Shown here: piece after piece, positions 10,531 through 23,919 of the stretch
How positions within the stretch are numbered: position 1 is the stretch's first letter
Layout: each line of letters begins with the position of its first letter
Assembly (NCBI RefSeq): GCF_902506655.1
Contig: NZ_LR734808.1
Span: 248,001 to 312,000, forward strand
Direction: 5' to 3'
Source: Marinoscillum sp. 108
GTDB lineage: Bacteria; Bacteroidota; Bacteroidia; Cytophagales; Cyclobacteriaceae
Length of the DNA: 64,000 bases
The notes under the pieces: generated by a model
Databases searched by the model: none
The model's input: only the letters and a program-made list of their open reading frames with translations
Told to the model about the DNA's origin: nothing
Translations under genes and position numbers: made by a program

Positions 10531-12174
10531 TTAGAGTCCTAATACCTCTACACCCTGTTCAAAAACAATGTCCACGGGAATGTCCTGAGCTTCCAGTTTG
10601 GAAAGGTCGGCCTGCAACGCAGCACCGATGGTTCCTTTTTCTTTCACAAGGGCATCTACTCCTGCATAGTCTCCATTACCCTGCAGGGTAAGAATAAGCT
10701 CAGAGAGTGCGTCCATGGCTTCTTTCATTTTGGCGAAATCCACACGATAGGTGCCGTCTTCATTTTGAGCGAATGCACCATATTCATTGAAAAAATTGAA
10801 ACGGATCATGTTGGCTTTGCCATGAGCACTGGCCGCTCCAAATCTCACCGAACGGAAAATCCCGGCCATGAAAGTGGTGTAGTAATCTTCTATCTGTCCT
10901 TCCAACTCGCCTTTCTCGTGAAGTTGGGTGATCATGTAAAGGCCGAGTATATCTGCTTTACCCTCTTCCAGTGCTGATCCGTGCTCCTGCAAGGCAGCGC
11001 GCACTGTACCTTTTCCATTGATGGTGTTTTTGATGCCCAGCCCGTGTGCCACTTCATGAAACATGGTGTTGGCAAAGAAGGCATCGAACGTGATGTATTG
11101 CTGCTGGTCTGGTGTGATCAACACTTTAGAAATGGGTAGCAGGATCTCGTCGAATTTGGCACGCATGGCGTTTTTGAGTTGGAGTCTTCTGGAGCCTTTG
11201 GCTAGTTGTACCTGCTCATCGTTGGGGAGGTTGATAGCGATGGTCTTAGAGCCGGAGTTACAGTCACCGGCGTAGTAGACCACATCATAGGCGTTGAGGT
11301 CGGCATCACTACCTGGTTCTTCAGCTTTGTATGCATCCGGTACCGGAAGTCCGCGCTGAAGCTCCGGCAGAAAAGCCGCATATTTTGAGAGTCGGTCGCT
11401 CCATGTCCTGTCTTTGATGAGTACGTAAGCCTCGTGTGCAGCTTTATAATTGTACAGGGCATCCTCATAGTTTTCGATGGGGCCAATCACTATGTCAATG
11501 CCGTTTGTTTTCATGTCCATCCAGGCCATATCAGACGGCTGATAGTCATCAGTAAGCAACGCTTCTGCCCGGTGTTTGAGGTAGGCCTTAAGGCCGGAAT
11601 CCTCTGCCAGGTCAGCACATTCCAGCAGCAGAGCAGACACTCGCTGTACTTCCTCGCTAAACATTTCGTAGTACGGAATGGCAATGAGTTGCCCGTTTTC
11701 ATCTCTTCTGATAAAGGTGTAAAGGCTGGCTTTGCCTTCCAGGTCTGCGGCTTCAAACTCCTCTTTGGTCATGTCAGTAGGGTAGAAGTTGGCTCCCGGA
11801 GGTTTGGTGCCCACCCCGTCGATGAATGGCTTGTTGTTGTCCAGTCGATCCCAGGGGCCGTAGTTGATCTTTACATAAGCTCTAGTGGCTTCATCCTCAA
11901 TGGTGCTGAGGAGAGAATCCTTCTGACCATAGGCTTCATACCAAAAGAGGCCATCCATGATCTGGGCCGCTTCTATCAGCTTGGGGATCATCTTTTTTTC
12001 CTTTTCGCTCAGCGCTGTGAGGTCAGCCGTGAGCCGGACTTTCTTATAGTCCTCTAGTTTAGCTTTCATGATTTCATTGGGTGCTTCGTCGGTGCTTTGC
12101 GCTTGTTTTTGGGGTCCACAGCCGAATAGGCTGATCACCAAGGCAACGACTAAAAATCGGGATACTTGTTTCAT
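10531..12174 (-). CDS. M49-like (dipeptidyl peptidase 3 family) zinc lipoprotein
   Basis: 547 residues with a lipoprotein signal (LFGC, Cys near 19). The zinc site reads FHEVAHGLG near residue 375 with a second motif EEGKADILGLY about 35 residues later, the spacing and sequence expected of the M49 / dipeptidyl-peptidase III group in Bacteroidota. Classical DPP III has HExxGH; here it is a plain HExxH. DPP III enzymes release dipeptides from peptide N-termini; this one would act on the periplasmic side or the cell surface. Monocistronic, with the terminator at 10472-10520 downstream. Activity is inferred from family resemblance. Confidence 0.75.
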   Translation of the reverse strand: MKQVSRFLVVALVISLFGCGPQKQAQSTDEAPNEIMKAKLEDYKKVRLTADLTALSEKEKKMIPKLIEAAQIMDGLFWYEAYGQKDSLLSTIEDEATRAYVKINYGPWDRLDNNKPFIDGVGTKPPGANFYPTDMTKEEFEAADLEGKASLYTFIRRDENGQLIAIPYYEMFSEEVQRVSALLLECADLAEDSGLKAYLKHRAEALLTDDYQPSDMAWMDMKTNGIDIVIGPIENYEDALYNYKAAHEAYVLIKDRTWSDRLSKYAAFLPELQRGLPVPDAYKAEEPGSDADLNAYDVVYYAGDCNSGSKTIAINLPNDEQVQLAKGSRRLQLKNAMRAKFDEILLPISKVLITPDQQQYITFDAFFANTMFHEVAHGLGIKNTINGKGTVRAALQEHGSALEEGKADILGLYMITQLHEKGELEGQIEDYYTTFMAGIFRSVRFGAASAHGKANMIRFNFFNEYGAFAQNEDGTYRVDFAKMKEAMDALSELILTLQGNGDYAGVDALVKEKGTIGAALQADLSKLEAQDIPVDIVFEQGVEVLGL

Positions 12175-14058: not shown

Positions 14059-14103
14059 GTAACTTTTGTTACCATCCTCGGGTGGTGGGTTTGCGTATCT
14101 TTA
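14059..14103 (+). promoter_or_regulatory. Crp/Fnr-type operator and -7 element, sterol desaturase promoter
   Basis: GTAACTTTTGTTAC at 14059-14072 is a perfect GTAAC-N4-GTTAC palindrome. After 23 bases comes TATCTTTA (14096-14103), one base off TAnnTTTG. The operator would be centred near -42, the position of a class II activator. The gene starts 60 bases downstream of the operator. Confidence 0.7.
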
Positions 14104-14132
14104 TCGATCAGTCAAAGAAGTCATAAGCATCA

Positions 14133-15035
14133 ATGGAATCAATTATTACAGAAATACGAAACGGCTATGCGGGTTATGCCGGCTACCTTTGGCAAGAAAT
14201 CACACACCCCACCTGGCACAATTACTTCTACTGGTTGCTGGGAGTGTCTGCATTTTTCTTTGCACTGGAACTCTTGAAGCCCTGGCGTGTAGATCAGGCA
14301 AAGTTTCGGAAGGATTTCTGGTTGGACTTCTTCTACATGTTTTTCAATTTCTTTCTGTTTTCCCTCATCATCTACAATGCCGCCTCCAATGTGGTGGTAC
14401 ACCTCTTCAATGACCTGCTGGGACTGCTGGGTATTACCAATCTGGTGGCTTTTGAAGTGATGAGTTGGCCGATATGGGCCCATCTGTTGCTCGGCTTTGT
14501 GGTACGCGATTTTGTGCAGTGGTGGATCCACCGTTTGCTGCATGCGAGCCCAAGGCTGTGGGAGTTTCACAAGGTGCACCATAGTGTGGCTGAGATGGGT
14601 TTTGCTGCCCACCTGCGATATCACTGGATGGAAAACGTGGTGTATCGCACCATTGAGTACATCCCGTTGGCACTTATCGGGATTGGTTTACGCGATTTTT
14701 TTATCATCCACATTTTCACCCTGGCCGTAGGTCATTTCAACCATTCCAATTTCAAACTGAACCTCGGACCTTTGAAGTATATTTTCAATAATCCACAGAT
14801 GCACATCTGGCACCATGCTTACCACCTGCCTGCAGAACGTCGATTAGGCGTTAATTTTGGATTGACGCTGAGTGTTTGGGATTATCTCTTTGGTACCGAC
14901 TACATTCCCCACGATGGGCGCGATATCCAGCTGGGCTTTCCTGGTGTGGAGGAGTTTCCTGCCGACTTTATAGGGCAAAATACCCATGGGTTTTCTGGTA
15001 AAGTGACCAGTCCGGGCGATAAAAAGCCTGACTGA
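14133..15035 (+). CDS. Sterol desaturase / fatty acid hydroxylase family membrane protein
   Basis: 300 residues, four to five membrane helices and the eight-histidine di-iron pattern of the family: HRLLH near residue 133, HKVHH near 147, and HIWHHAYH near 228. Such enzymes hydroxylate or desaturate lipids using O2 and sit in the cytoplasmic membrane. The promoter carries the same Crp/Fnr-type operator as three sulfur genes downstream, so it may be part of one oxygen- or sulfur-responsive regulon. Substrate unknown. Confidence 0.85.
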   Translation: MESIITEIRNGYAGYAGYLWQEITHPTWHNYFYWLLGVSAFFFALELLKPWRVDQAKFRKDFWLDFFYMFFNFFLFSLIIYNAASNVVVHLFNDLLGLLGITNLVAFEVMSWPIWAHLLLGFVVRDFVQWWIHRLLHASPRLWEFHKVHHSVAEMGFAAHLRYHWMENVVYRTIEYIPLALIGIGLRDFFIIHIFTLAVGHFNHSNFKLNLGPLKYIFNNPQMHIWHHAYHLPAERRLGVNFGLTLSVWDYLFGTDYIPHDGRDIQLGFPGVEEFPADFIGQNTHGFSGKVTSPGDKKPD

Positions 15036-15051
15036 TCCCCGGCAGATTTTT

Positions 15052-15059
15052 TACCTTTA
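15052..15059 (+). promoter_or_regulatory. Possible -7 element for the 53-aa gene and Crp/Fnr gene
   Basis: TACCTTTA, one base off TAnnTTTG, 18 bases before the small gene's start. No Crp/Fnr palindrome precedes it, so the regulator gene may not be under its own control here. Confidence 0.35.
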
Positions 15060-15076
15060 GGGAAACACTAAAGACA

Positions 15077-15238
15077 ATGGAAAACGAACTGATTCCGAAG
15101 GAGGCCTACGCCGAAATAGAGCAAATGATCACCAGTGCTGAGAGCGTGGTGGGTATAGATGCTAAAAAGACCCATATCATCATCATACACAAGCTGATGG
15201 AAATAGAAAAGCGGTTGAAAGCCCTCGAGAATAAATAA
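15077..15238 (+). CDS. Small 53-residue protein ahead of Crp/Fnr regulator
   Basis: ATG at 15077, TAA at 15236-15238. The product starts MENELIPKEAY and ends in a charged amphipathic helix (LMEIEKRLKALENK). No membrane segment. It ends 11 bases before the regulator's start, so the two are probably cotranscribed. Codon use looks like neighbouring genes. I do not recognise a family; a helical partner of the regulator is one guess. Confidence 0.6.
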   Translation: MENELIPKEAYAEIEQMITSAESVVGIDAKKTHIIIIHKLMEIEKRLKALENK

Positions 15239-15249
15239 GTGAAATCACA

Positions 15250-15891
15250 ATGAGCAACGAGACAGAAGATCTGGTACATCAGATTCTTGGCAGATCAGAG
15301 ATAGAGCCTCAATTGGCCGAAGAGATTTTATCGATAGGACGATTGAAGAAAGTGAAGGCAGGTGGGGTGGTCATAGGCCCTGATAGTACAGGCAATGAAA
15401 TGCCCATCGTACTGGAAGGTTTGCTGAAGGTAATGCGTCAGGACCAGACGGGAGGCGAAGTTTTTCTCTACTTCCTGGAGGGTGGGGAGACCTGCGCCAT
15501 GTCCATTACCTGCTGTATAGAAGGCAAAAAGAAGGCCTTTCATGTGGTGGCAGAGGAGGATTCTGTGCTTTGGATGATCCCTATGACGTACATAGACAGC
15601 TGGGTGGTGAAGTACAAGTCATTCAGGAAGTTTGTCTTCGATGCATATCAAACCCGTTTCGATGAGATGCTGAACACCATCGACAGTGTGGTCTTTCTGA
15701 AAATGGATCAAAGACTTTATAAATACCTACTTGACAAGAAACAGGCTTCAGGAACCTTTGTGATCAACAAGACCCATGAGCAAATCGCCAATGAACTGAA
15801 TACTTCCCGGGTGGTGGTCTCGCGGCTCCTGAAGCAGCTGGAGCGTGAAGGGAAGATAGAGCAATACCGGAACCGTATAGAAATCATGTAA
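15250..15891 (+). CDS. Crp/Fnr family transcriptional regulator
   Basis: 213 residues: cyclic-nucleotide-binding-like beta domain (about 20-125), dimer helix (about 130-150), and a winged helix-turn-helix (about 155-210) with THEQIANELNTSRVVVSRLLKQ as its recognition segment, split here as THEQIANELN and SRVVVSRLLKQ. In the effector domain the sequence ETCAMSITCC places Cys at 82, 88 and 89, suggesting redox or thiol sensing rather than cAMP binding; the N-terminal FeS cysteines of Fnr are absent. Four promoters around it share a GTnAC-N4-GTnAC palindrome, the best candidate targets. Confidence 0.9.
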   Translation: MSNETEDLVHQILGRSEIEPQLAEEILSIGRLKKVKAGGVVIGPDSTGNEMPIVLEGLLKVMRQDQTGGEVFLYFLEGGETCAMSITCCIEGKKKAFHVVAEEDSVLWMIPMTYIDSWVVKYKSFRKFVFDAYQTRFDEMLNTIDSVVFLKMDQRLYKYLLDKKQASGTFVINKTHEQIANELNTSRVVVSRLLKQLEREGKIEQYRNRIEIM

Positions 15892-15899
15892 CTTGGAGT

Positions 15900-15943
15900 G
15901 TGACAATTGTTACACCGGAGGGTTAGGGAGTTTGATACTTTTG
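15900..15943 (+). promoter_or_regulatory. Crp/Fnr-type operator and -7 element, sulP promoter
   Basis: GTGACAATTGTTAC at 15900-15913 (one mismatch pair from perfect symmetry), 22 bases, then TACTTTTG at 15936-15943, an exact TAnnTTTG. Gene start at 15964. Confidence 0.72.
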
Positions 15944-15963
15944 GGGCTTCAAAAAGGTAAGCA

Positions 15964-17691
15964 ATGAAATTGATACACCAGATACTGCCCATCACGAGCT
16001 GGCTGCCTCAGTATAAAAAGACTCAGCTGAATGGCGACTTGTTTGCCGGTCTCACGGTTGGGATTATGCTGATTCCTCAGGGGATGGCTTATGCGCTGAT
16101 TGCGGGACTGCCCCCTGTTTATGGCTTGTATGCCTCCATCGTTCCTCAGCTCATCTATGCTCTATTTGGTACTTCGCGGCAGCTTTCCGTGGCTCCTGTG
16201 GCCATGGACTCACTGCTGGTAGCGGCCGGGGTATCAGTGCTGGCCACGGAGGGTACTGATGCCTACATTGGGTTTGCCATTCTTTTGGCGTTTTTTATGG
16301 GGGCCTTCCAGTTATTGCTGGGTGTACTGCGCCTGGGATTCATCACCAACCTTCTTTCAAAGCCAGTGATCAGTGGGTTTACCTCCGCTGCGGCGCTCAT
16401 CATCGGCCTCAATCAGTTGAAATACCTCATGGGGGTAGATCTGGTGAAAAGTAATAAGGTACATGAAATCCTCTGGGATGCTGTGCAAAGTATCAACCAG
16501 ACACATTTGATGACGCTGGCCATAGGGATTGTGGGGATTGTCATCATCAAAGGAGTGAAGCGGATTCATTCCAGTATTCCCGGAGCCTTGATTGCGGTGA
16601 TATTCGGTACGGCCTTGGTCTATTTTATGCAGCTGGAGTCTGCCGGTGTGAGCATAGTAAAAACCATACCCGATGGTTTGCCCTCCTTCAAACTACCAGA
16701 CCTCTCTTTGGGTCAGCTGGGTGAACTCATTCCGCTGGCACTCACCATCTCCGTGGTAGCCTTTATGGAGGCCTTTTCTGTGGCCAAAGCCATAGAAGCC
16801 AAAAAACGAAATTACAAAGTACAGCCCAATCAGGAACTGGTGGCGCTGGGGGCGGCTAACTTAATAGGGTCGCTGTTTCAGTCTTTTCCGGTGACTGGTG
16901 GTTTTTCCCGATCGGCAGTCAACTACCAGTCCGGGGCACATACACCACTTTCGTCTGTGATCAGTGCAGTAGTGGTTTCGCTCACCCTCATCTTTCTCAC
17001 GCCACTGTTTTATTTCCTGCCCAAAGCCATTCTTGCTTCGGTGATTATGGTGGCGGTAGCCGGATTGATCGATTGGACCTATGCCCGGCGACTGTGGAAA
17101 GACAGTCGGGTAGAATTTGCCCTCCTGATTGCTACCTTTTTGATCACCCTCAATTTTAGTATGGTGCCTGGCATCGTCAGCGGTATCGTATTGTCTATCC
17201 TGGTGCTTTTGTACAGGTCGGCATATCCGCATATCGCCAGACTGGGCAGGGTGCGGGGACATCACGAGTTTAGAAATATCAAACGATTCAAGGACCTGGA
17301 GCAGTGGGAGCACGTCCTCATTTTGCGCCTGGATGCGCCGCTTACTTTCATCAATATTCAGTATTTTAAGGAGTATATTGAGAATGCCGTAGACGATGCC
17401 CAGGGTCGGATAGAAACGCTTATATTAGATGCTGGCCCGCTCAGCTATCTGGACGCCACGGCCACCAGCGGGCTGAAGGATTTGTTGGACTTTTTGCATG
17501 AAAAAAAGATAGAGTTTCTGATTTGTGACCTGATTGGCCCAGTGAGGGATACTATGAAAAGGACAGGCTTGAATGAGGTTCTACATAAGGAAAATGTGTT
17601 TTTTGATCTGAACGAGGCAGTGAAATTTGCCACTACCCACAAGCAGGGGGACTACAAAGATTATGCGCTGCAGTCGGACTTAAAAGACTAA
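15964..17691 (+). CDS. SulP family anion (sulfate) transporter with STAS domain
   Basis: 575 residues. The N-terminal part opens with the SulP signature region (GDLFAGLTVGIMLIPQGMAY, given in part as GDLFAGLTVGIML), followed by 10-14 membrane helices and GGFSRSAVN of the substrate-binding core. A cytoplasmic STAS domain occupies about residues 440-550 (LDAGPLSYLDATATSGL). SulP proteins move sulfate, bicarbonate or other anions. Context next to persulfide dioxygenase and thiosulfate-type transporters favours a sulfur oxyanion. The next gene starts three bases after its stop. Confidence 0.88.
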   Translation: MKLIHQILPITSWLPQYKKTQLNGDLFAGLTVGIMLIPQGMAYALIAGLPPVYGLYASIVPQLIYALFGTSRQLSVAPVAMDSLLVAAGVSVLATEGTDAYIGFAILLAFFMGAFQLLLGVLRLGFITNLLSKPVISGFTSAAALIIGLNQLKYLMGVDLVKSNKVHEILWDAVQSINQTHLMTLAIGIVGIVIIKGVKRIHSSIPGALIAVIFGTALVYFMQLESAGVSIVKTIPDGLPSFKLPDLSLGQLGELIPLALTISVVAFMEAFSVAKAIEAKKRNYKVQPNQELVALGAANLIGSLFQSFPVTGGFSRSAVNYQSGAHTPLSSVISAVVVSLTLIFLTPLFYFLPKAILASVIMVAVAGLIDWTYARRLWKDSRVEFALLIATFLITLNFSMVPGIVSGIVLSILVLLYRSAYPHIARLGRVRGHHEFRNIKRFKDLEQWEHVLILRLDAPLTFINIQYFKEYIENAVDDAQGRIETLILDAGPLSYLDATATSGLKDLLDFLHEKKIEFLICDLIGPVRDTMKRTGLNEVLHKENVFFDLNEAVKFATTHKQGDYKDYALQSDLKD

Positions 17692-17694
17692 GAC

Positions 17695-17958
17695 ATGAAG
17701 GAACGGGAAATGATACTCAGAGATCACCTGGTCCTGGATCGAACCAAGCTGGCCAATCAACGGACGTTATTGGCTTTCGTTAGGACCAGTCTTTATCTGG
17801 TGGTATCGGGGATTGCCGTGATCAAGGTTGATTTTTTGGACAAAATCCGCTTTTTGGGCTTTATCCTTGTAGGGATTAGCCTGATTGTCTTGATTCTGGG
17901 AGTTTGGAACTATTTCTATTTCAGGAAAAAGATGATGAATCAATATCATCAGGATTGA
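17695..17958 (+). CDS. DUF202 small membrane protein
   Basis: 87 residues with an N-terminal block LANQRTLLAFVRTSLYL, the hallmark of DUF202 (YidH-like), and two membrane helices (about 35-55 and 60-80). Function unknown. It begins three bases after the SulP gene and is surely cotranscribed with it; it may assist the transporter. Confidence 0.8.
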   Translation: MKEREMILRDHLVLDRTKLANQRTLLAFVRTSLYLVVSGIAVIKVDFLDKIRFLGFILVGISLIVLILGVWNYFYFRKKMMNQYHQD

Positions 17959-17984
17959 GTTGTATACAGAGCTACTTTGGGTGT

Positions 17985-18028
17985 GTAACCATTGTTACAT
18001 CAGGATCGTGGGGTAGTTCGTAAGTTTG
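17985..18028 (+). promoter_or_regulatory. Crp/Fnr-type operator and -7 element, persulfide dioxygenase promoter
   Basis: GTAACCATTGTTAC at 17985-17998, a perfect palindrome, 22 bases, then TAAGTTTG at 18021-18028, an exact TAnnTTTG. Gene start at 18062. Confidence 0.75.
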
Positions 18029-18061
18029 TAAAAGAATTCGCATTAAAACCTAAAAATAACA

Positions 18062-19471
18062 ATGAAGGTAGAACAGATTTATACAGGATGCCTTGCTCAG
18101 GGAGCTTATTATATTGAAAGTAATGGAGAAGCGGCGATCATCGATCCGTTGAGAGAGTCAGAGCCTTATATCCTGAAAGCCGAGAAGGAAGGAGCTAAGA
18201 TCAAATATATTTTTGAGACCCACTTTCATGCTGACTTTGTGTCGGGACATGTGGATCTGGCTGCTAAGACCGGTGCCACTATTGTATATGGTCCCAATGC
18301 CAAAACGGAGTATGACATTCACGAAGCAACTGACGGTGAGCTGTTTCGGATTGGAAAAATCAAGATAAAAGTATTGCACACTCCAGGACATACCATGGAG
18401 AGCACCACCTATCTACTGATAGATGAGGCCGGGAAGGAACATGCTATTTTCAGTGGAGATACACTTTTCATTGGCGATGTGGGACGGCCCGATCTGGCTC
18501 AGAAAGGCACACTCACTCAAGATGACCTGGCTGGTTATTTATATGATAGCCTACGAACCAAGATCATGACCTTACCCGATGAGGTGATTGTGTACCCGGC
18601 ACATGGAGCAGGCTCGGCCTGTGGCAAAAACATGAGCAAGGAAACCACCGACCTGCTGGGCAACCAGAAGAAAACCAATTATGCACTCAGGGCGGATATG
18701 ACCAAAGAGGAATTTATCAAAGAAGTGACAGATGGTTTGCTGCCGCCACCACAGTACTTTGCGCAAAACGTGGCCATGAATAAATCTGGTGCCAAAGGAA
18801 TGGATGAGATCCTTGAAAAAGGAAATGTGCCATTGGATGTAGAGACGTTTGAGGCAGTAGCTAATCACGAAGGAGCTTTGGTTTTGGATACCCGCTCTCC
18901 CGGAGAGTTTGCTGCTGACCATGTACCCAACTCCATCTTTATTGGTATTGATGGCAGTTTTGCGCCGTGGGTAGGAGCGTTGATCCCTGATTTGGAACAA
19001 CCCATTGTATTCATAGCGCCTGAAGGCCGTGAGGAGGAGATCGTAACACGACTTTCCAGAGTTGGGTATGATAATACCCTGGGCTATCTGAGCGGAGGAA
19101 TGGCAGCATGGAAAGCTGCTGGAAAAGATACCGAGCAGGTCACTACTATCCCTGCACATCAATTCGCAAGTGCTTATAAGGAAGGTGGCCTGAATGTCAT
19201 GGATGTGCGAAAGCCATCAGAATTTGAAGCTGAGCATGTGGAAGATGCGATGAACTTGCCACTGGATTTTATCAGTGAAAACATGGATCAGGTGGACAAG
19301 AAGAAGCAATACCACATTCATTGTGCGGGAGGTTATCGATCTATGATTGCAGCTTCGATATTGAAATCCCGGGGATTTGACAATATTGTGGATGTGGCCG
19401 GAGGCTTCAAGGCCATCTCCGAAACGGATATACCTACTACCAATTATGTATGTCCTTCTACTTTGAAGTGA
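18062..19471 (+). CDS. CstB-like persulfide dioxygenase / rhodanese fusion
   Basis: 469 residues in three parts. Residues 1-250 are a metallo-beta-lactamase fold of the ETHE1 type: THFHADFVSGH, HTPGHTMES, FSGDTLFIGDVGRPDL and PAHGAGSACGK supply the mononuclear iron site. Residues about 260-355 are a rhodanese-like domain without catalytic Cys (IAPEGREEE at the active loop). Residues about 365-465 are an active rhodanese with CAGGYRS. This PDO / pseudo-rhodanese / rhodanese order is that of CstB, which oxidises persulfides to thiosulfate. It would remove sulfane sulfur arising from sulfide. Own promoter with a Crp/Fnr-type site. Confidence 0.9.
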   Translation: MKVEQIYTGCLAQGAYYIESNGEAAIIDPLRESEPYILKAEKEGAKIKYIFETHFHADFVSGHVDLAAKTGATIVYGPNAKTEYDIHEATDGELFRIGKIKIKVLHTPGHTMESTTYLLIDEAGKEHAIFSGDTLFIGDVGRPDLAQKGTLTQDDLAGYLYDSLRTKIMTLPDEVIVYPAHGAGSACGKNMSKETTDLLGNQKKTNYALRADMTKEEFIKEVTDGLLPPPQYFAQNVAMNKSGAKGMDEILEKGNVPLDVETFEAVANHEGALVLDTRSPGEFAADHVPNSIFIGIDGSFAPWVGALIPDLEQPIVFIAPEGREEEIVTRLSRVGYDNTLGYLSGGMAAWKAAGKDTEQVTTIPAHQFASAYKEGGLNVMDVRKPSEFEAEHVEDAMNLPLDFISENMDQVDKKKQYHIHCAGGYRSMIAASILKSRGFDNIVDVAGGFKAISETDIPTTNYVCPSTLK

Positions 19472-19502
19472 TTGATTGTTCTAATAGATAGTTTGATTGA
19501 AG

Positions 19503-19540
19503 AGGTGCTGATTGTTAAAGTCAGCACCTTTTTGTTTTTC
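19503..19540. terminator. Intrinsic terminator between persulfide dioxygenase and cydB
   Basis: AGGTGCTGA (19503-19511) pairs with TCAGCACCT (19521-19529), loop of nine, then TTTTG and TTTTT. It ends the plus-strand gene and may also serve cydB coming from the other side. Confidence 0.85.
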
Positions 19541-19610
19541 TATGAAGAAGGGTTTAAGAGAAAGCCAACAGTTCATCAGAGGAGACAACTCCCGAACTTA
19601 AAATAATAGA

Positions 19611-20645
19611 CTAATAACTCAGCTCATCCATTTTTACTTTTCCCCGGAAGGTCCAAAAAACGAAGGTCGTGTAGGCCACCACCAAAGGTGTGCCTATGGC
19701 CGCTATGATCAGAAGGGTTCCCAGTGATTTTTCGGAAGCACTGGCATTATGAATGGTCAGACTGTTGGCAGGATTCTCATTGGAAAGAATAATCACAGGA
19801 AATAGCTCAATGGCTACCACAATGAGCAGTGTAGCAATGGAGATGCAGGAAAAGGCGAATGCATTGCCGTAGCGTTTTTTGCTAATCAGTCTCGGAATAT
19901 TGGCAATACTCAGGAAGGCAATCAAGGGCACGATGAATAGTACTGGTTCGCCTTTGAACCGATCGGAAAGATGGGGAAAGTAGATGAGGGTATAGAGAGT
20001 AGTGATACCGAAGCTCACCAGAAAGAAAATAATAGCCTGCTTTACATGCAGGGTCATTTTGATAAATTGTTTGCCTTCCGTCTTCATGATGAGGTAGATC
20101 GCTCCATGCATCATGAAGAGGGCCAGGGTGCAGATGCCCACCATTACTGCGTAAGGGTTAAAAAAAGCAATCCAGTCGCCATCAAATTCCAGATCGGGAC
20201 CTATTGGCATTCCCTGAAGCACATTGCCCAATACCACACCCAGGAGCACGGCCAGCATGATGCTGGAAAAACTGTAAGCACCGTCCCACATATTTTGCCA
20301 CCATTTCATGGGCTCTTTGCTTCGAAACTCTATGGAAATGGCCCTGAAAATAATCAGTACCAAAAAGAGCATAAATGGAATGTACATGGCAGAAAGCAGG
20401 GTGGCATAAACGATCGGGAATCCGGCAAACAAGGCACCTCCACCAATCACCAGCCACACTTCGTTGCCATCCCATACCGGGCCGATGGCATTGAGCGCTG
20501 TTCTTCGGCTCTTGTCATCCTTAAAAAAGAGATGCCAGGCACCGGCGCCCAGGTCAAAGCCATCCAGAATGGCATATCCTGAGAAAACAGCTCCTACTAC
20601 CAGAAACCACCACGTTGTATATTCTATGCCTATGAAAGTTGCCAT
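19611..20645 (-). CDS. cydB: Cytochrome bd ubiquinol/menaquinol oxidase subunit II
   Basis: 344 residues, nine or so membrane helices, with the CydB signature near the N-terminus (AILDGFDLGAGAWHL) and GPVWDGNEVWLV, both typical of subunit II. With CydA it forms the bd oxidase that reduces O2 to water using menaquinol, with high O2 affinity and low sensitivity to sulfide. Starts 11 bases after the cydA stop. No CydX-like small gene follows. Confidence 0.95.
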   Translation of the reverse strand: MATFIGIEYTTWWFLVVGAVFSGYAILDGFDLGAGAWHLFFKDDKSRRTALNAIGPVWDGNEVWLVIGGGALFAGFPIVYATLLSAMYIPFMLFLVLIIFRAISIEFRSKEPMKWWQNMWDGAYSFSSIMLAVLLGVVLGNVLQGMPIGPDLEFDGDWIAFFNPYAVMVGICTLALFMMHGAIYLIMKTEGKQFIKMTLHVKQAIIFFLVSFGITTLYTLIYFPHLSDRFKGEPVLFIVPLIAFLSIANIPRLISKKRYGNAFAFSCISIATLLIVVAIELFPVIILSNENPANSLTIHNASASEKSLGTLLIIAAIGTPLVVAYTTFVFWTFRGKVKMDELSY

Positions 20646-20656
20646 AATGTGTGATT

Positions 20657-22033
20657 TTAAGATTGAATCGCATCTACAATTTCGCGCTGATGCGGCCGCT
20701 GATCGATCATTTCTCCATCCTGAGGGCCATGTTGAATCTTTTTATTGAGCAGGTAGATGAAAAGCGCAAAGAGCAGTGAATAGACCAATGAGAACAGCAC
20801 CAGTGAAAAGATCACCTGGTTAGCCGTGACCACCTTCGAGAGCGCATCGGATGTACGAAGCAGACCATAGACTACCCACGGTTGACGTCCCATCTCAGCA
20901 GCAAACCAGCCCGCCTGATTGGCTATTTGAGGCAGGAGCACGGCCACCACAAAGGCTTTGAGCACCCATCGGTGATCGAATAATTTTCCACGCCACCAAA
21001 GAAAGCAACCCAGCAGGGAAAGCCCGATGAGCGCCATTCCGATCCCCACCATCAGGTGATAAAACTGAAACACGGCATTGATTTGTCCAGGTCTTTCATC
21101 TTCAGGAAAAGCATTTATCCCCTTTACTTTGGCATTGAAATCCTGGTGAATCAAAAATGAAAGGCCATTGGGGATTTTGATTCCCGAAACCTCCTGTTTC
21201 TCCTTATCCACCCACCCGAGGAGGTACATATCCGCGGCAGCCAGACTATCAAAGTGGCCCTCCATGGCGGCCAATTTCACAGGTTGATTCACGGCCACTC
21301 CATCTGCAGACCTGTGCCCGGTGAAAAGCTGTGACAAGGAGGCGACAACCCCCACTACAAGTGCAATTTTGAACGCTTTTTTGGACACTTCTATGTGTCT
21401 GTTTTTTAGAAGATAGTAGGCATGTACGCTCATGACCAGAAATGCCCCAGCCAAAAATGAACCGATCCATACGTGAGATAGCCGGTCTACACTGGATGGA
21501 TTGAAGACCATGGCCCAAAAATCGGTGATCTCAGCTCTGGCTTCCATGCCTTCGCCTACGATGTGGTACCCTCCCGGCGTCTGCTGCCACGAGTTGGCCA
21601 CCACGATCCATACTGCCGAAAACATTGACCCAAGCCATACGCCAAGTGTGGCTGTGAAGTGAACGACTGGACTTACCCTGTTCCATCCGAACAAGAGAAT
21701 ACCGAGAAATCCGCTTTCGAGCGCAAAAGCAAAGATGCCTTCAGCGGCCAGTGCGCTGCCAAAAATATCGCCCACATAGCGTGAGTAGGTAGCCCAGTTA
21801 GTGCCAAACTCAAACTCCATGACGATACCTGTGGCTACTCCAATGCCAAAGGTAAGTGCGAAGATCTTGGTCCAAAACCTGGCCAGTTGTTCATAAGCGG
21901 GATCCTTAGTGCGGAGGTAGAGGCCTTCCATGATGACCATGATCAGCCCGAGCCCGATGCTCACCGGGGGGTAGATGTAGTGAAAGGAAATGGTAAGCGC
22001 AAACTGAATGCGGGAGAGAATTTCTACATCCAT
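20657..22033 (-). CDS. cydA: Cytochrome bd oxidase subunit I (short Q-loop)
   Basis: 458 residues. Heme ligand region [13 protein letters not shown] (His near residue 18), the GRQPW motif in [19 protein letters not shown], and a quinol loop with [16 protein letters not shown]. The loop lacks the long C-terminal insertion of E. coli CydA, so it is of the short-Q-loop class. It is the first gene of cydAB and is divergent from the YeeE/YedE pair. A -7-like TACCTTTG lies at 22044-22051 on the minus strand, which would give a very short leader. Confidence 0.95.
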
Positions 22034-22109
22034 TTTTTTGATTCAAAGGTAGCGACCAGCGAGATAAACCTCTATGGAAAGACCTTGAAATATTGAGGAG
22101 GTCAATGTG

Positions 22110-22126
22110 TTTACCATGAGGGTAAA
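22110..22126. promoter_or_regulatory. Second palindrome in the cydA / YeeE intergenic region
   Basis: TTTACC (22110-22115) and GGTAAA (22121-22126) form a perfect 6-bp inverted repeat with a 5-base spacer, 77 bases upstream of cydA and 14 bases from the Crp/Fnr-type site. A candidate operator for cydAB. Confidence 0.4.
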
Positions 22127-22139
22127 TCTCGGTGCCTAT

Positions 22140-22183
22140 GTAACAAATGTTACCCTTGGGGGCAGCTGGTTAAGATAGTTTTG
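22140..22183 (+). promoter_or_regulatory. Crp/Fnr-type operator and -7 element, YeeE/YedE promoter
   Basis: GTAACAAATGTTAC at 22140-22153, a perfect palindrome, 22 bases, then TAGTTTTG at 22176-22183, an exact TAnnTTTG. Gene start at 22215. The site is also 107 bases upstream of cydA on the other strand. Confidence 0.75.
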
Positions 22184-22214: not shown

Positions 22215-22790
22215 ATGAAAGAAATATTGGATTTCGTTAGTCAACCCTGGCCCTGGTATGTGGCCGGTCCTCTGATAGCGCTGGTTATGTTTACGTTGAT
22301 CATTTTCGGAAACAACTTTGGGATTTCAGCCAACCTGAGAACAGTTTGCTCCATTGTGGGTGCAGGGAAGAACTGCGAATTTTTCGACTTTAACTGGAAA
22401 AGTCAGTTGTGGAATTTGGTTTTTGCTTTTGGGTTGGTGCTTGGCGGGCTGATCACACATCAGTATCTCACTACTCCGGATGAGGTTACCCTCTCCGCTG
22501 CCACACTTGCTGACCTGGCTGAGCTGGGTATAGAGGCACCCCGCGATCAACTGGTGCCCTTGAGTATTTTTAGCTGGGAGTCGCTGGCTACAGTGAGGGG
22601 TTTTATTATTCTGGTGGTTGGTGGATTCCTGATCGGCTTTGGTACCAGGTATGCAGGTGGCTGTACTTCGGGGCATGCCATTAGCGGCCTCAGCGATCTG
22701 CAACTTCCGTCTTTGATCGCTGTGGTAGGGTTTTTCATCGGAGGGCTTTTTATGACCTACCTGGTTCTCCCTTATCTATTCACTTTATAA
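22215..22790 (+). CDS. YeeE/YedE family transporter half, with GGCTSGH motif
   Basis: 191 residues with five membrane helices. [15 protein letters not shown] carries the conserved Cys of the YeeE/YedE (PF04143) family, in which Cys residues relay thiosulfate through the membrane in TsuA. This is the first of two half-length proteins; the second begins nine bases after its stop. Together they would make one full pseudo-twofold transporter. Located beside the persulfide dioxygenase and bd oxidase and headed by a Crp/Fnr-type promoter. Confidence 0.88.
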
Positions 22791-22799
22791 TCGTAGAAA

Positions 22800-23213
22800 A
22801 TGAAAATATTCAGATACATCATAGTAGGCATCGTCTTTGGGATCACCCTGGCCAAATCAGAGGTAATCTCCTGGTACAGGATTTATGAGATGTTTAAATT
22901 CCAGTCATTTCACATGTATGGAGTGATTGGCTCAGCGGTTATTTTAGGAATTATCTCTGTCCAGATGATGAAGCGGTTCAACATCAAAACCATTGATGGA
23001 TTGCCCATAGTAATCAACCCCAAGCAGATGAGTGTTTCCCGATATCTTTTTGGGGGCATCATATTTGGGTTGGGTTGGGCCATGACAGGAGCCTGCCCCG
23101 GGCCTATGTTTATTCTGTTGGGCAATGGAGTAGGCGTCATTCTGGTGGTCATCGCTTCTGCGCTTCTGGGCACTTACACGTATGGTTTGGTGAGAAATAA
23201 GTTGCCTCACTAA
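22800..23213 (+). CDS. YeeE/YedE (DUF6691-type) transporter half, with GACPGP motif
   Basis: 137 residues, four membrane helices, and GWAMTGACPGPMFILLGNG, the second conserved Cys motif of the YeeE/YedE family (given here as TGACPGPMF). It pairs with the preceding 191-residue half and is cotranscribed with it. Probable role: import of thiosulfate or another sulfur species. Confidence 0.87.
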   Translation: MKIFRYIIVGIVFGITLAKSEVISWYRIYEMFKFQSFHMYGVIGSAVILGIISVQMMKRFNIKTIDGLPIVINPKQMSVSRYLFGGIIFGLGWAMTGACPGPMFILLGNGVGVILVVIASALLGTYTYGLVRNKLPH

Positions 23214-23481: not shown

Positions 23482-23919
23482 ATGAAAAATTTAACGATAA
23501 CCCTAACAGCCCCGGGAAACATCAAATTGGCGTTTTATTTGGGCACCACCCTGTTATTGATCGCCTTACTAAGCTCCTGTCAGAGCTCTGCTCAAAGCCC
23601 TGAGTATCGGACAGTAACCAATGAAGAACTTGTGACACTGCTAAAAGATGAGAGTGTACAGCTTTTGGATGTGCGTACGCCAGAGGAGGTTGCTCAGGGA
23701 GTGATTGCTGGTGCAGGCCATATTGATATCTACGATCCTGAGTTTGACAACAAACTAAGCCAACTGGATAGGACCAGGCCCGTAGCGGTCTATTGTGCGG
23801 CAGGTGGCAGAAGCGCCAAAGCCAGTATGAAACTCAAGGAATCGGGGTTTCAAAAAATATATGACCTAAAAGGTGGCTACAGGGGCTGGCAGCAAGCAGG
23901 TTTTCCTGTTTCCCAATAG
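23482..23919 (+). CDS. Rhodanese-domain lipoprotein
   Basis: 145 residues: a lipoprotein signal (LLSSC, Cys near 33), then one rhodanese domain (about 45-143) with the active Cys in VYCAAGGRSAKAS and the supporting LLDVRTPEEV segment. It would act in the periplasm as a thiosulfate or persulfide sulfurtransferase. It follows the sulfur island but has its own 268-base upstream gap, in which I found no Crp/Fnr-type palindrome, so it may be controlled differently. Confidence 0.88.
   Translation: MKNLTITLTAPGNIKLAFYLGTTLLLIALLSSCQSSAQSPEYRTVTNEELVTLLKDESVQLLDVRTPEEVAQGVIAGAGHIDIYDPEFDNKLSQLDRTRPVAVYCAAGGRSAKASMKLKESGFQKIYDLKGGYRGWQQAGFPVSQ

Follow-up and report, generated by a model that had tools for sequence, protein, structure and literature searches.

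Four palindromes and a Crp/Fnr-type regulator gene in one window

The window analyzed here is a stretch of 64,000 nucleotides from Marinoscillum sp. 108 (contig NZ_LR734808.1, positions 248,001 to 312,000), in which four copies of the palindrome GTnAC-N4-GTnAC stand in front of genes near a Crp/Fnr-type regulator gene. We propose that the four copies belong to promoters activated by this regulator, in a regulon for the handling of sulfane sulfur. The palindromes and the regulator gene had been pointed out in an earlier note made from the window sequence, whose coordinates for the palindromes are correct to the base. These four sites are the only matches to GTNACNNNNGTNAC in the window, against 0.48 expected, and none of 100 shuffles reached four. 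Reading of the window confirmed the spacing given in the note: from site 1 to site 4, the gap to a -7-like box is 23, 22, 22, and 22 bases, and the distance to the ATG is 60, 50, 63, and 61 bases. Box 1 has one mismatch to TAnnTTTG, and boxes 2 to 4 are exact. The features are as follows (L064, L065, and L067 are related loci, L065 being from Marinoscillum pacificum).

14059 to 14072, + strand: putative operator 1, GTAACTTTTGTTAC; conserved in position ahead of the orthologous gene in L064, L065, and L067
14096 to 14103, + strand: -7-like box TATCTTTA, gap 23; same box and gap in L064, L065, and L067
14133 to 15035, + strand: FA_hydroxylase superfamily ("sterol desaturase") gene; PF04116, 8e-28
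15077 to 15238, + strand: open reading frame (ORF) of 53 amino acids between the hydroxylase and regulator genes; no Pfam match
15250 to 15891, + strand: gene for a Crp/Fnr-type protein, the regulator proposed to act at the four sites; both PF00027 and PF13545 above cut-off
15493 to 15495, + strand: codon of Cys82, proposed sensor residue; Cys in all 64 aligned relatives, and in the structural model it immediately precedes helix 83-91
15900 to 15913, + strand: putative operator 2, GTGACAATTGTTAC; window scan and orthologous promoters
15936 to 15943, + strand: -7 box TACTTTTG, gap 22; window reading and genome-wide box scan
15964 to 17691, + strand: SulP-family anion permease with STAS domain; PF00916, 5e-116, and TIGR00815 over cut-off
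17695 to 17958, + strand: DUF202 membrane protein, probably cotranscribed with SulP; PF02656, and a DUF202 gene with its own site in L067
17985 to 17998, + strand: putative operator 3, GTAACCATTGTTAC; window scan and orthologous promoters
18021 to 18028, + strand: -7 box TAAGTTTG, gap 22; window reading and genome-wide box scan
18062 to 19471, + strand: persulfide dioxygenase (PDO)-rhodanese fusion, with a metallo-beta-lactamase and two rhodanese stretches; Pfam and structure-profile matches
22140 to 22153, + strand: putative operator 4, GTAACAAATGTTAC; window scan and orthologous promoters
22176 to 22183, + strand: -7 box TAGTTTTG, gap 22; window reading and genome-wide box scan
22215 to 22790, + strand: YeeE/YedE-type half transporter; PF04143, weak matches to YeeE/TsuA structures
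22800 to 23213, + strand: second YeeE half (DUF6691), probably cotranscribed with the first; PF20398 and PF04143
23482 to 23919, + strand: single-domain rhodanese gene downstream, operon membership uncertain; PF00581

The hydroxylase gene is probably the first gene of an operon that ends with the regulator gene, judging from the spacing. In the scan of the window, the rhodanese gene at 23482 to 23919 was not preceded by a separate site and box. The lactamase-rhodanese protein is called a PDO because of its profile matches to solved persulfide dioxygenases, namely, ETHE1 (4chl, 1e-17) and BpPRF (5ve4, 3e-17), the latter of which we take to be a persulfide dioxygenase-rhodanese fusion. Its two best structure matches, 3tp9 and 3r2u, stand above both.

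The palindrome with its box in the rest of the genome

A genome-wide scan had been suggested as a check in the earlier note, and its outcome was divided: the bare palindrome came out near chance frequency and was rejected as a genome-wide marker, whereas the palindrome with box lies above chance and occurs outside the window beside rhodanese genes. Both sides of all 50 palindrome places were read, giving 100 oriented sites. An exact TAnnTTTG 19 to 26 bases downstream was found at five of these, every time at 22 bases, against about 0.3 expected by chance (45 boxes per 128,000 oriented window positions, times 8 gaps, times 100 sites). The five are window sites 2, 3, and 4 together with sites at C1:61404 and C10:189795. 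When one box mismatch was allowed at a gap of 21 to 23, seven oriented sites were obtained: the four window sites, two rhodanese promoters, and a site before a 79-amino-acid protein. The C10:189795 site precedes a single-domain rhodanese gene. The C1:61404 site lies between divergent genes for a rhodanese (box TTCCTTTG, one mismatch, gap 22) and the 79-amino-acid membrane protein (exact box TAACTTTG). Rhodanese domain matches in the genome number 12. The local regulon claimed earlier is thus supported as a shared regulon, and it is not only local.

The C1:61404 site (L001, 1501 to 1514) has a -7-like box 22 bases away on both sides and may be shared by two divergent promoters.

Site and box are retained in a second genome and in related loci

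The genome of Marinoscillum pacificum encodes a regulator that is 85% identical. The palindrome occurs there at 56 places, 50 of which were read (100 oriented sites), and nine oriented sites carried a box with at most one mismatch at a gap of 21 to 23. Seven of the nine precede genes for SulP, PDO, YeeE, hydroxylase, a CoA-disulfide reductase-like protein (L210; below the equivalog cut-off, its frame running on into a rhodanese-like stretch), and two rhodanese-like proteins typed by sequence (L213, with site TTTCTTTG, and L229). Sites in L221 and L255 have no convincing gene behind them. A second PDO gene (L228) has a site with a two-mismatch box at a gap of 23.

Across 66 related loci, nearly all labelled Bacteroidota, 46 exact palindromes had a box within the same limits, distributed over 34 of the loci, while seven control palindromes of the same shape gave 1, 0, 1, 3, 3, 0, and 0. 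The gap was 22 in 34 of the 46 sites (21 to 23 in all, by selection). Allowing one palindrome mismatch raised the count to 84 sites, against 10 to 36 for the controls. A downstream ORF was present for 77 of the 84: YeeE (17), PDO (13), SulP (6), hydroxylase (3), rhodanese (2), DUF202 (1), and others (35). By look, the others comprised 22 YgaP-like membrane proteins, five DUF6132-like, two OsmC, two TauE, one zinc-ribbon-like, and three cases of probable noise; Pfam confirmed two of the YgaP-like proteins, both OsmC, both TauE, and one DUF6132, as well as one of the two rhodaneses.

Comparison of the upstream regions of the same genes in relatives, another check named in the note, showed that palindrome and -7 box are kept before orthologues. 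In an ungapped alignment of orthologous promoters, the palindrome was 85% identical, the -7 box 88%, the spacer 32%, and the 30 bases upstream 34%; because rows were selected by their palindrome, the box figure alone is independent, and first-site rows were counted at a gap of 22 though their box lies at 23.

DUF6132-like small membrane proteins stand behind the operator in L094 (the Pfam-confirmed case), L114, L117, L120, and L125, which may hint at what DUF6132 does.

The promoter layout goes with the regulator

Of 194 genomes of the order, the regulator was matched in 94 and PDO in 160. A count by eye put at least 29 regulator matches, spread over 24 genomes, no more than about 10 kb from a PDO among the matches listed. 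PDO upstream stretches were compared between genomes with and without the regulator, the layout being defined as a site with at most one mismatch and a box with at most one mismatch at a gap of 21 to 23. The layout was found in 20 of 40 promoters with the regulator and in 1 of 40 without it. Seven control palindromes gave 0 to 4 of 40 with the regulator (one reached 4) and 0 of 40 without. The Fisher value of 5.6e-7 is too good, since part of the sample was chosen by hand; nor do related genomes count as independent. With an exact palindrome and at most one box mismatch, the counts were 8 versus 1 of 40 (P = 0.014); an exact palindrome within 250 bases was found in 9 versus 1.

The set without the regulator consisted of 40 stretches from 39 genomes (G024 twice), out of 42 such genomes among the matches listed (by eye), with G120, G148, and G173 left out. 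The set with the regulator was taken mostly down the similarity list with skips; for G040, G054, G059, and G127, the copy nearest the regulator was used rather than the most similar one. Starts other than ATG occurred in five rows of the former set and one of the latter. The sole positive without the regulator, G107, is a 190-contig assembly of 93% completeness from a genus (g27) in which six other sampled members have a match. Sampling of 198 genomes across the phylum gave relatives of the regulator in 75 at E ≤ 1e-30.

The regulator and its invariant cysteine

The protein combines a domain of the cyclic nucleotide-binding (cNMP) type with a Crp-type helix-turn-helix, which places it in the Crp/Fnr superfamily. 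Its AlphaFold2 model (mean predicted local distance difference test [pLDDT] score of 87, about 76 to 82 around Cys82) matches Crp/Fnr structures. Cys82 is one of 13 invariant columns in an alignment of 64 sequences and is the only cysteine of the protein in 12 of them; because of these 12, Cys88 and Cys89 of the window protein cannot be general. In the profile alignment, the CRP row is gapped at C82-A83, immediately ahead of the phosphate-binding cassette residues of CRP. The helix of this cassette is the one that holds the phosphate of cyclic AMP (cAMP) in CRP.

The recognition helix carries R187, V188, and R192, an NtcA-like R-V-R triad. Matches to the cNMP domain number 15 in the genome. 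Five longer multidomain proteins were left out of the paralogue alignment, and among the ten Crp-type proteins shorter than 260 amino acids, only that encoded at 15250 to 15891 has both a cysteine at the Cys82 column and the triad.

Comparison with known systems

The best match, both by profile (2e-38) and by fold, is 3DV8, a putative Crp/Fnr regulator of Eubacterium rectale with a cysteine aligned to Cys82. It differs in that identity in the fold alignment is 26%, and its record title names no function.

Two well-known members of the superfamily, cAMP-CRP and FNR, were considered and rejected. CRP contacts cAMP through Glu72; here, the 64 rows show F, I, L, or T in the aligned column and in no case E, and the score is 25.9 bits against a cut-off of 266. 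FNR uses four cysteines for its [4Fe-4S] cluster; here, Cys82 is the only invariant cysteine, and 12 of the 64 proteins contain just one. A third member, CooA, binds heme through Cys and His ligands, with the His two residues after the Cys; in the window regulator family, no His stands there, and the residue is Met or Ile in 61 of 64, though heme might be bound in another way.

NtcA is closer. Like the window regulator, it has R-V-R recognition residues and a class II layout. NtcA is described as binding GTAN8TAC centered at roughly -41.5, and in one promoter 22 bases separate the site from the -10 box (PMC3898017). GTAAC-N4-GTTAC is itself an instance of GTA-N8-TAC, which brings the recognition helix, the operator, and the layout into line with NtcA, and the window promoters appear to follow the NtcA-like class II pattern, GTAN8TAC at a fixed distance from the -10/-7 box. 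NtcA differs in responding to 2-oxoglutarate, in controlling nitrogen genes, and in its TAN3T box, in contrast to the Bacteroidota -7 box and the invariant Cys82 seen here. Identity with NtcA was rejected at 23.7 bits against a cut-off of 244.95 and from the targets, which are not nitrogen genes.

Sulfane-sulfur regulators named in a 2022 review are CstR, SqrR/BigR, PigS, and FisR; FNR does not appear in that text, and CRP appears only in its references (PMC9774590). MarR- and OxyR-type sensors are named elsewhere in the literature. SqrR/BigR (ArsR family), CstR (CsoR family), and FisR resemble the system proposed here in controlling sulfide or persulfide detoxification genes via cysteine (PMC9774590). 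They differ in belonging to other families and in using two or more cysteines each, and SqrR and CstR are repressors; here, a Crp/Fnr protein has one invariant cysteine.

Weighing the explanations

Collectively, we favor, with a probability of about 0.7, the reading that the Crp/Fnr protein encoded at 15250 to 15891 works as a class II activator at all four sites; it would govern a regulon of sulfane-sulfur handling and sense its signal through Cys82. Within this reading, regulon and regulator are weighed above the signal. Sites, geometry, conservation, association with the regulator, and invariance of the cysteine were computed here. The class II layout proposed in the earlier note is supported by the genome-wide scan, the orthologous promoters, the second genome, and the presence and absence of the regulator. 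On this basis, the sites are almost certainly functional, and the 15250 protein very probably binds them. Sulfane sulfur is the signal we moderately favor; of the two signals suggested earlier, the sulfur theme is upheld, and an oxygen shift finds no support beyond the divergent cydAB genes beside site 4. Persulfidation of Cys82 may be the switch.

Several observations weigh against this reading. The 5.21-Mb genome has the bare palindrome at 50 places, and on the plus side of C1:61404 the ATG lies only 4 bases after the box, so that the match there could be fortuitous. In the PDO comparison, all 80 upstream stretches were hand-chosen among the matches listed, 20 of the 40 promoters with the regulator are without the layout (7 of these from one genus), and the strictest form, exact palindrome with exact box, gave 3 versus 1 of 40, which is not significant (P = 0.31). 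None of the genes for hydroxylase, DUF202, OsmC, SulP, and DUF6132 is specific to sulfane sulfur. The invariance of Cys82 is no proof of sulfur sensing.

Chance palindromes beside ordinary promoters would fit the near-chance frequency of the bare palindrome; we give this explanation next to no credence in view of the fixed 22-base spacing, its recurrence in two genomes, and the orthologous promoters whose spacers have diverged, and as a general account it is refuted by the control palindromes (0 to 3 against 46). That another Crp/Fnr protein binds the sites, with the 15250 gene merely lying among them, is conceivable given the number of cNMP-domain proteins in the genome. It is very improbable, since site and regulator go together across genomes and the R-V-R triad is confined to the 15250 protein among the ten shorter paralogues.

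An HcpR2-type nitric-oxide regulator was weighed because the published HcpR2 operator, GTAACnnnnGTTAC, is identical to the window operator consensus; the two proteins also share a superfamily, and HcpR2 is described as having a Pro at position 181 and hcp as a target (Rodionov 2005; PMC1274295). Against this, the genome has no hcp (PF03063) match, 63 of 64 sequences have Val at position 181, and Porphyromonas gingivalis HcpR (9DAY) is matched at 6.5e-6, far more weakly than 3dv8, NtcA, or CRP. HcpR2 was rejected, and a regulator of its type is hardly credible here. A different signal acting on the same regulon and regulator is unlikely, though less remote: Cys82 would react to peroxide or nitric oxide, or serve as a heme ligand, and the sulfur genes would be a downstream need. 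Heme-binding Crp/Fnr proteins, HcpR and PgRsp, are described for Porphyromonas (PMC12750200 and PMC6955866), cydAB adjoins site 4, and OsmC genes belong to the regulons of some relatives. Most typed targets, however, act on persulfide, thiosulfate, or related sulfur, which speaks for a sulfur signal, and a heme ligand seems less likely in view of the residue two after Cys82, where CooA has His, and of the lack of any sensor-domain histidine among the invariant columns.

Proposed mechanism

Under the sulfane-sulfur reading, a regulator dimer would read GTRAC-N4-GTTAC through the R187-V188-R192 helix, centered near -41, and recruit RNA polymerase to the TAnnTTTG -7 box. Of six own-genome spacers inspected by eye, only that of L041 has a TTTG in the first bases after the palindrome, and the activator is accordingly placed about where a -33 element would be. 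The genes turned on would be those for PDO, the YeeE halves, SulP, and rhodaneses, serving to move, relay, and oxidize sulfane sulfur. By way of site 1, the operon of the regulator itself is probably also a target. As the signal, a persulfide or polysulfide is the most likely candidate; Cys82 would detect it from its place at the beginning of the helix equivalent to that holding the cAMP phosphate in CRP. Binding by the 15250 protein, activation, signal, and cysteine chemistry are what we infer. The existence of the regulon, with its defined operator and a candidate sensor thiol, is well supported, with signal and chemistry more conjectural.

A literature search found, among the papers listed, none on a Crp/Fnr regulator of sulfane sulfur in Bacteroidota, within the limits that queries with the phrase "Crp Fnr" are weak and miss "Crp/Fnr" and that subscription journals lie mostly outside its coverage. 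If the proposal is true, the Crp/Fnr superfamily joins the sulfane-sulfur sensors, with a covalent stand-in for a cyclic-nucleotide ligand. Its extension to a Bacteroidota-wide sensor of Crp/Fnr fold, a one-cysteine activator unlike SqrR, CstR, and FisR in which persulfide on the cysteine replaces the cAMP phosphate, is tentative, at somewhat less than even odds. The idea is directly testable, since it specifies the operator, the promoter layout, the targets, and a candidate sensor residue.

Neighboring genes and further observations

Genes for cydB and cydA (PF02322 and PF01654) occupy 19611 to 22033 on the minus strand, divergent from site 4, and both L065 and L067 have a cydA-like ORF at the equivalent place. 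Regulation of cydA from site 4 is not supported: the best box on its side at a gap of 19 to 26 has four mismatches.

The FA_hydroxylase gene heads the regulator operon and keeps its operator in L064, L065, and L067; an oxygen-dependent, lipid-type enzyme is an unexpected member of a sulfur regulon. In L067, an exact palindrome at 11843 lies 57 bases before a type III sulfide:quinone reductase-like gene (below cut-off), with a poor -7 box of three mismatches. A contig labelled Sulfurimonas (L129, 9842 to 10459) encodes a distant relative of the regulator, 22% identical and with an equivalent of Cys82. A GTAAC-N4-GTTAC site lies 10 bases after the matched end of this relative, which points to spread beyond Bacteroidota or to a binning error.

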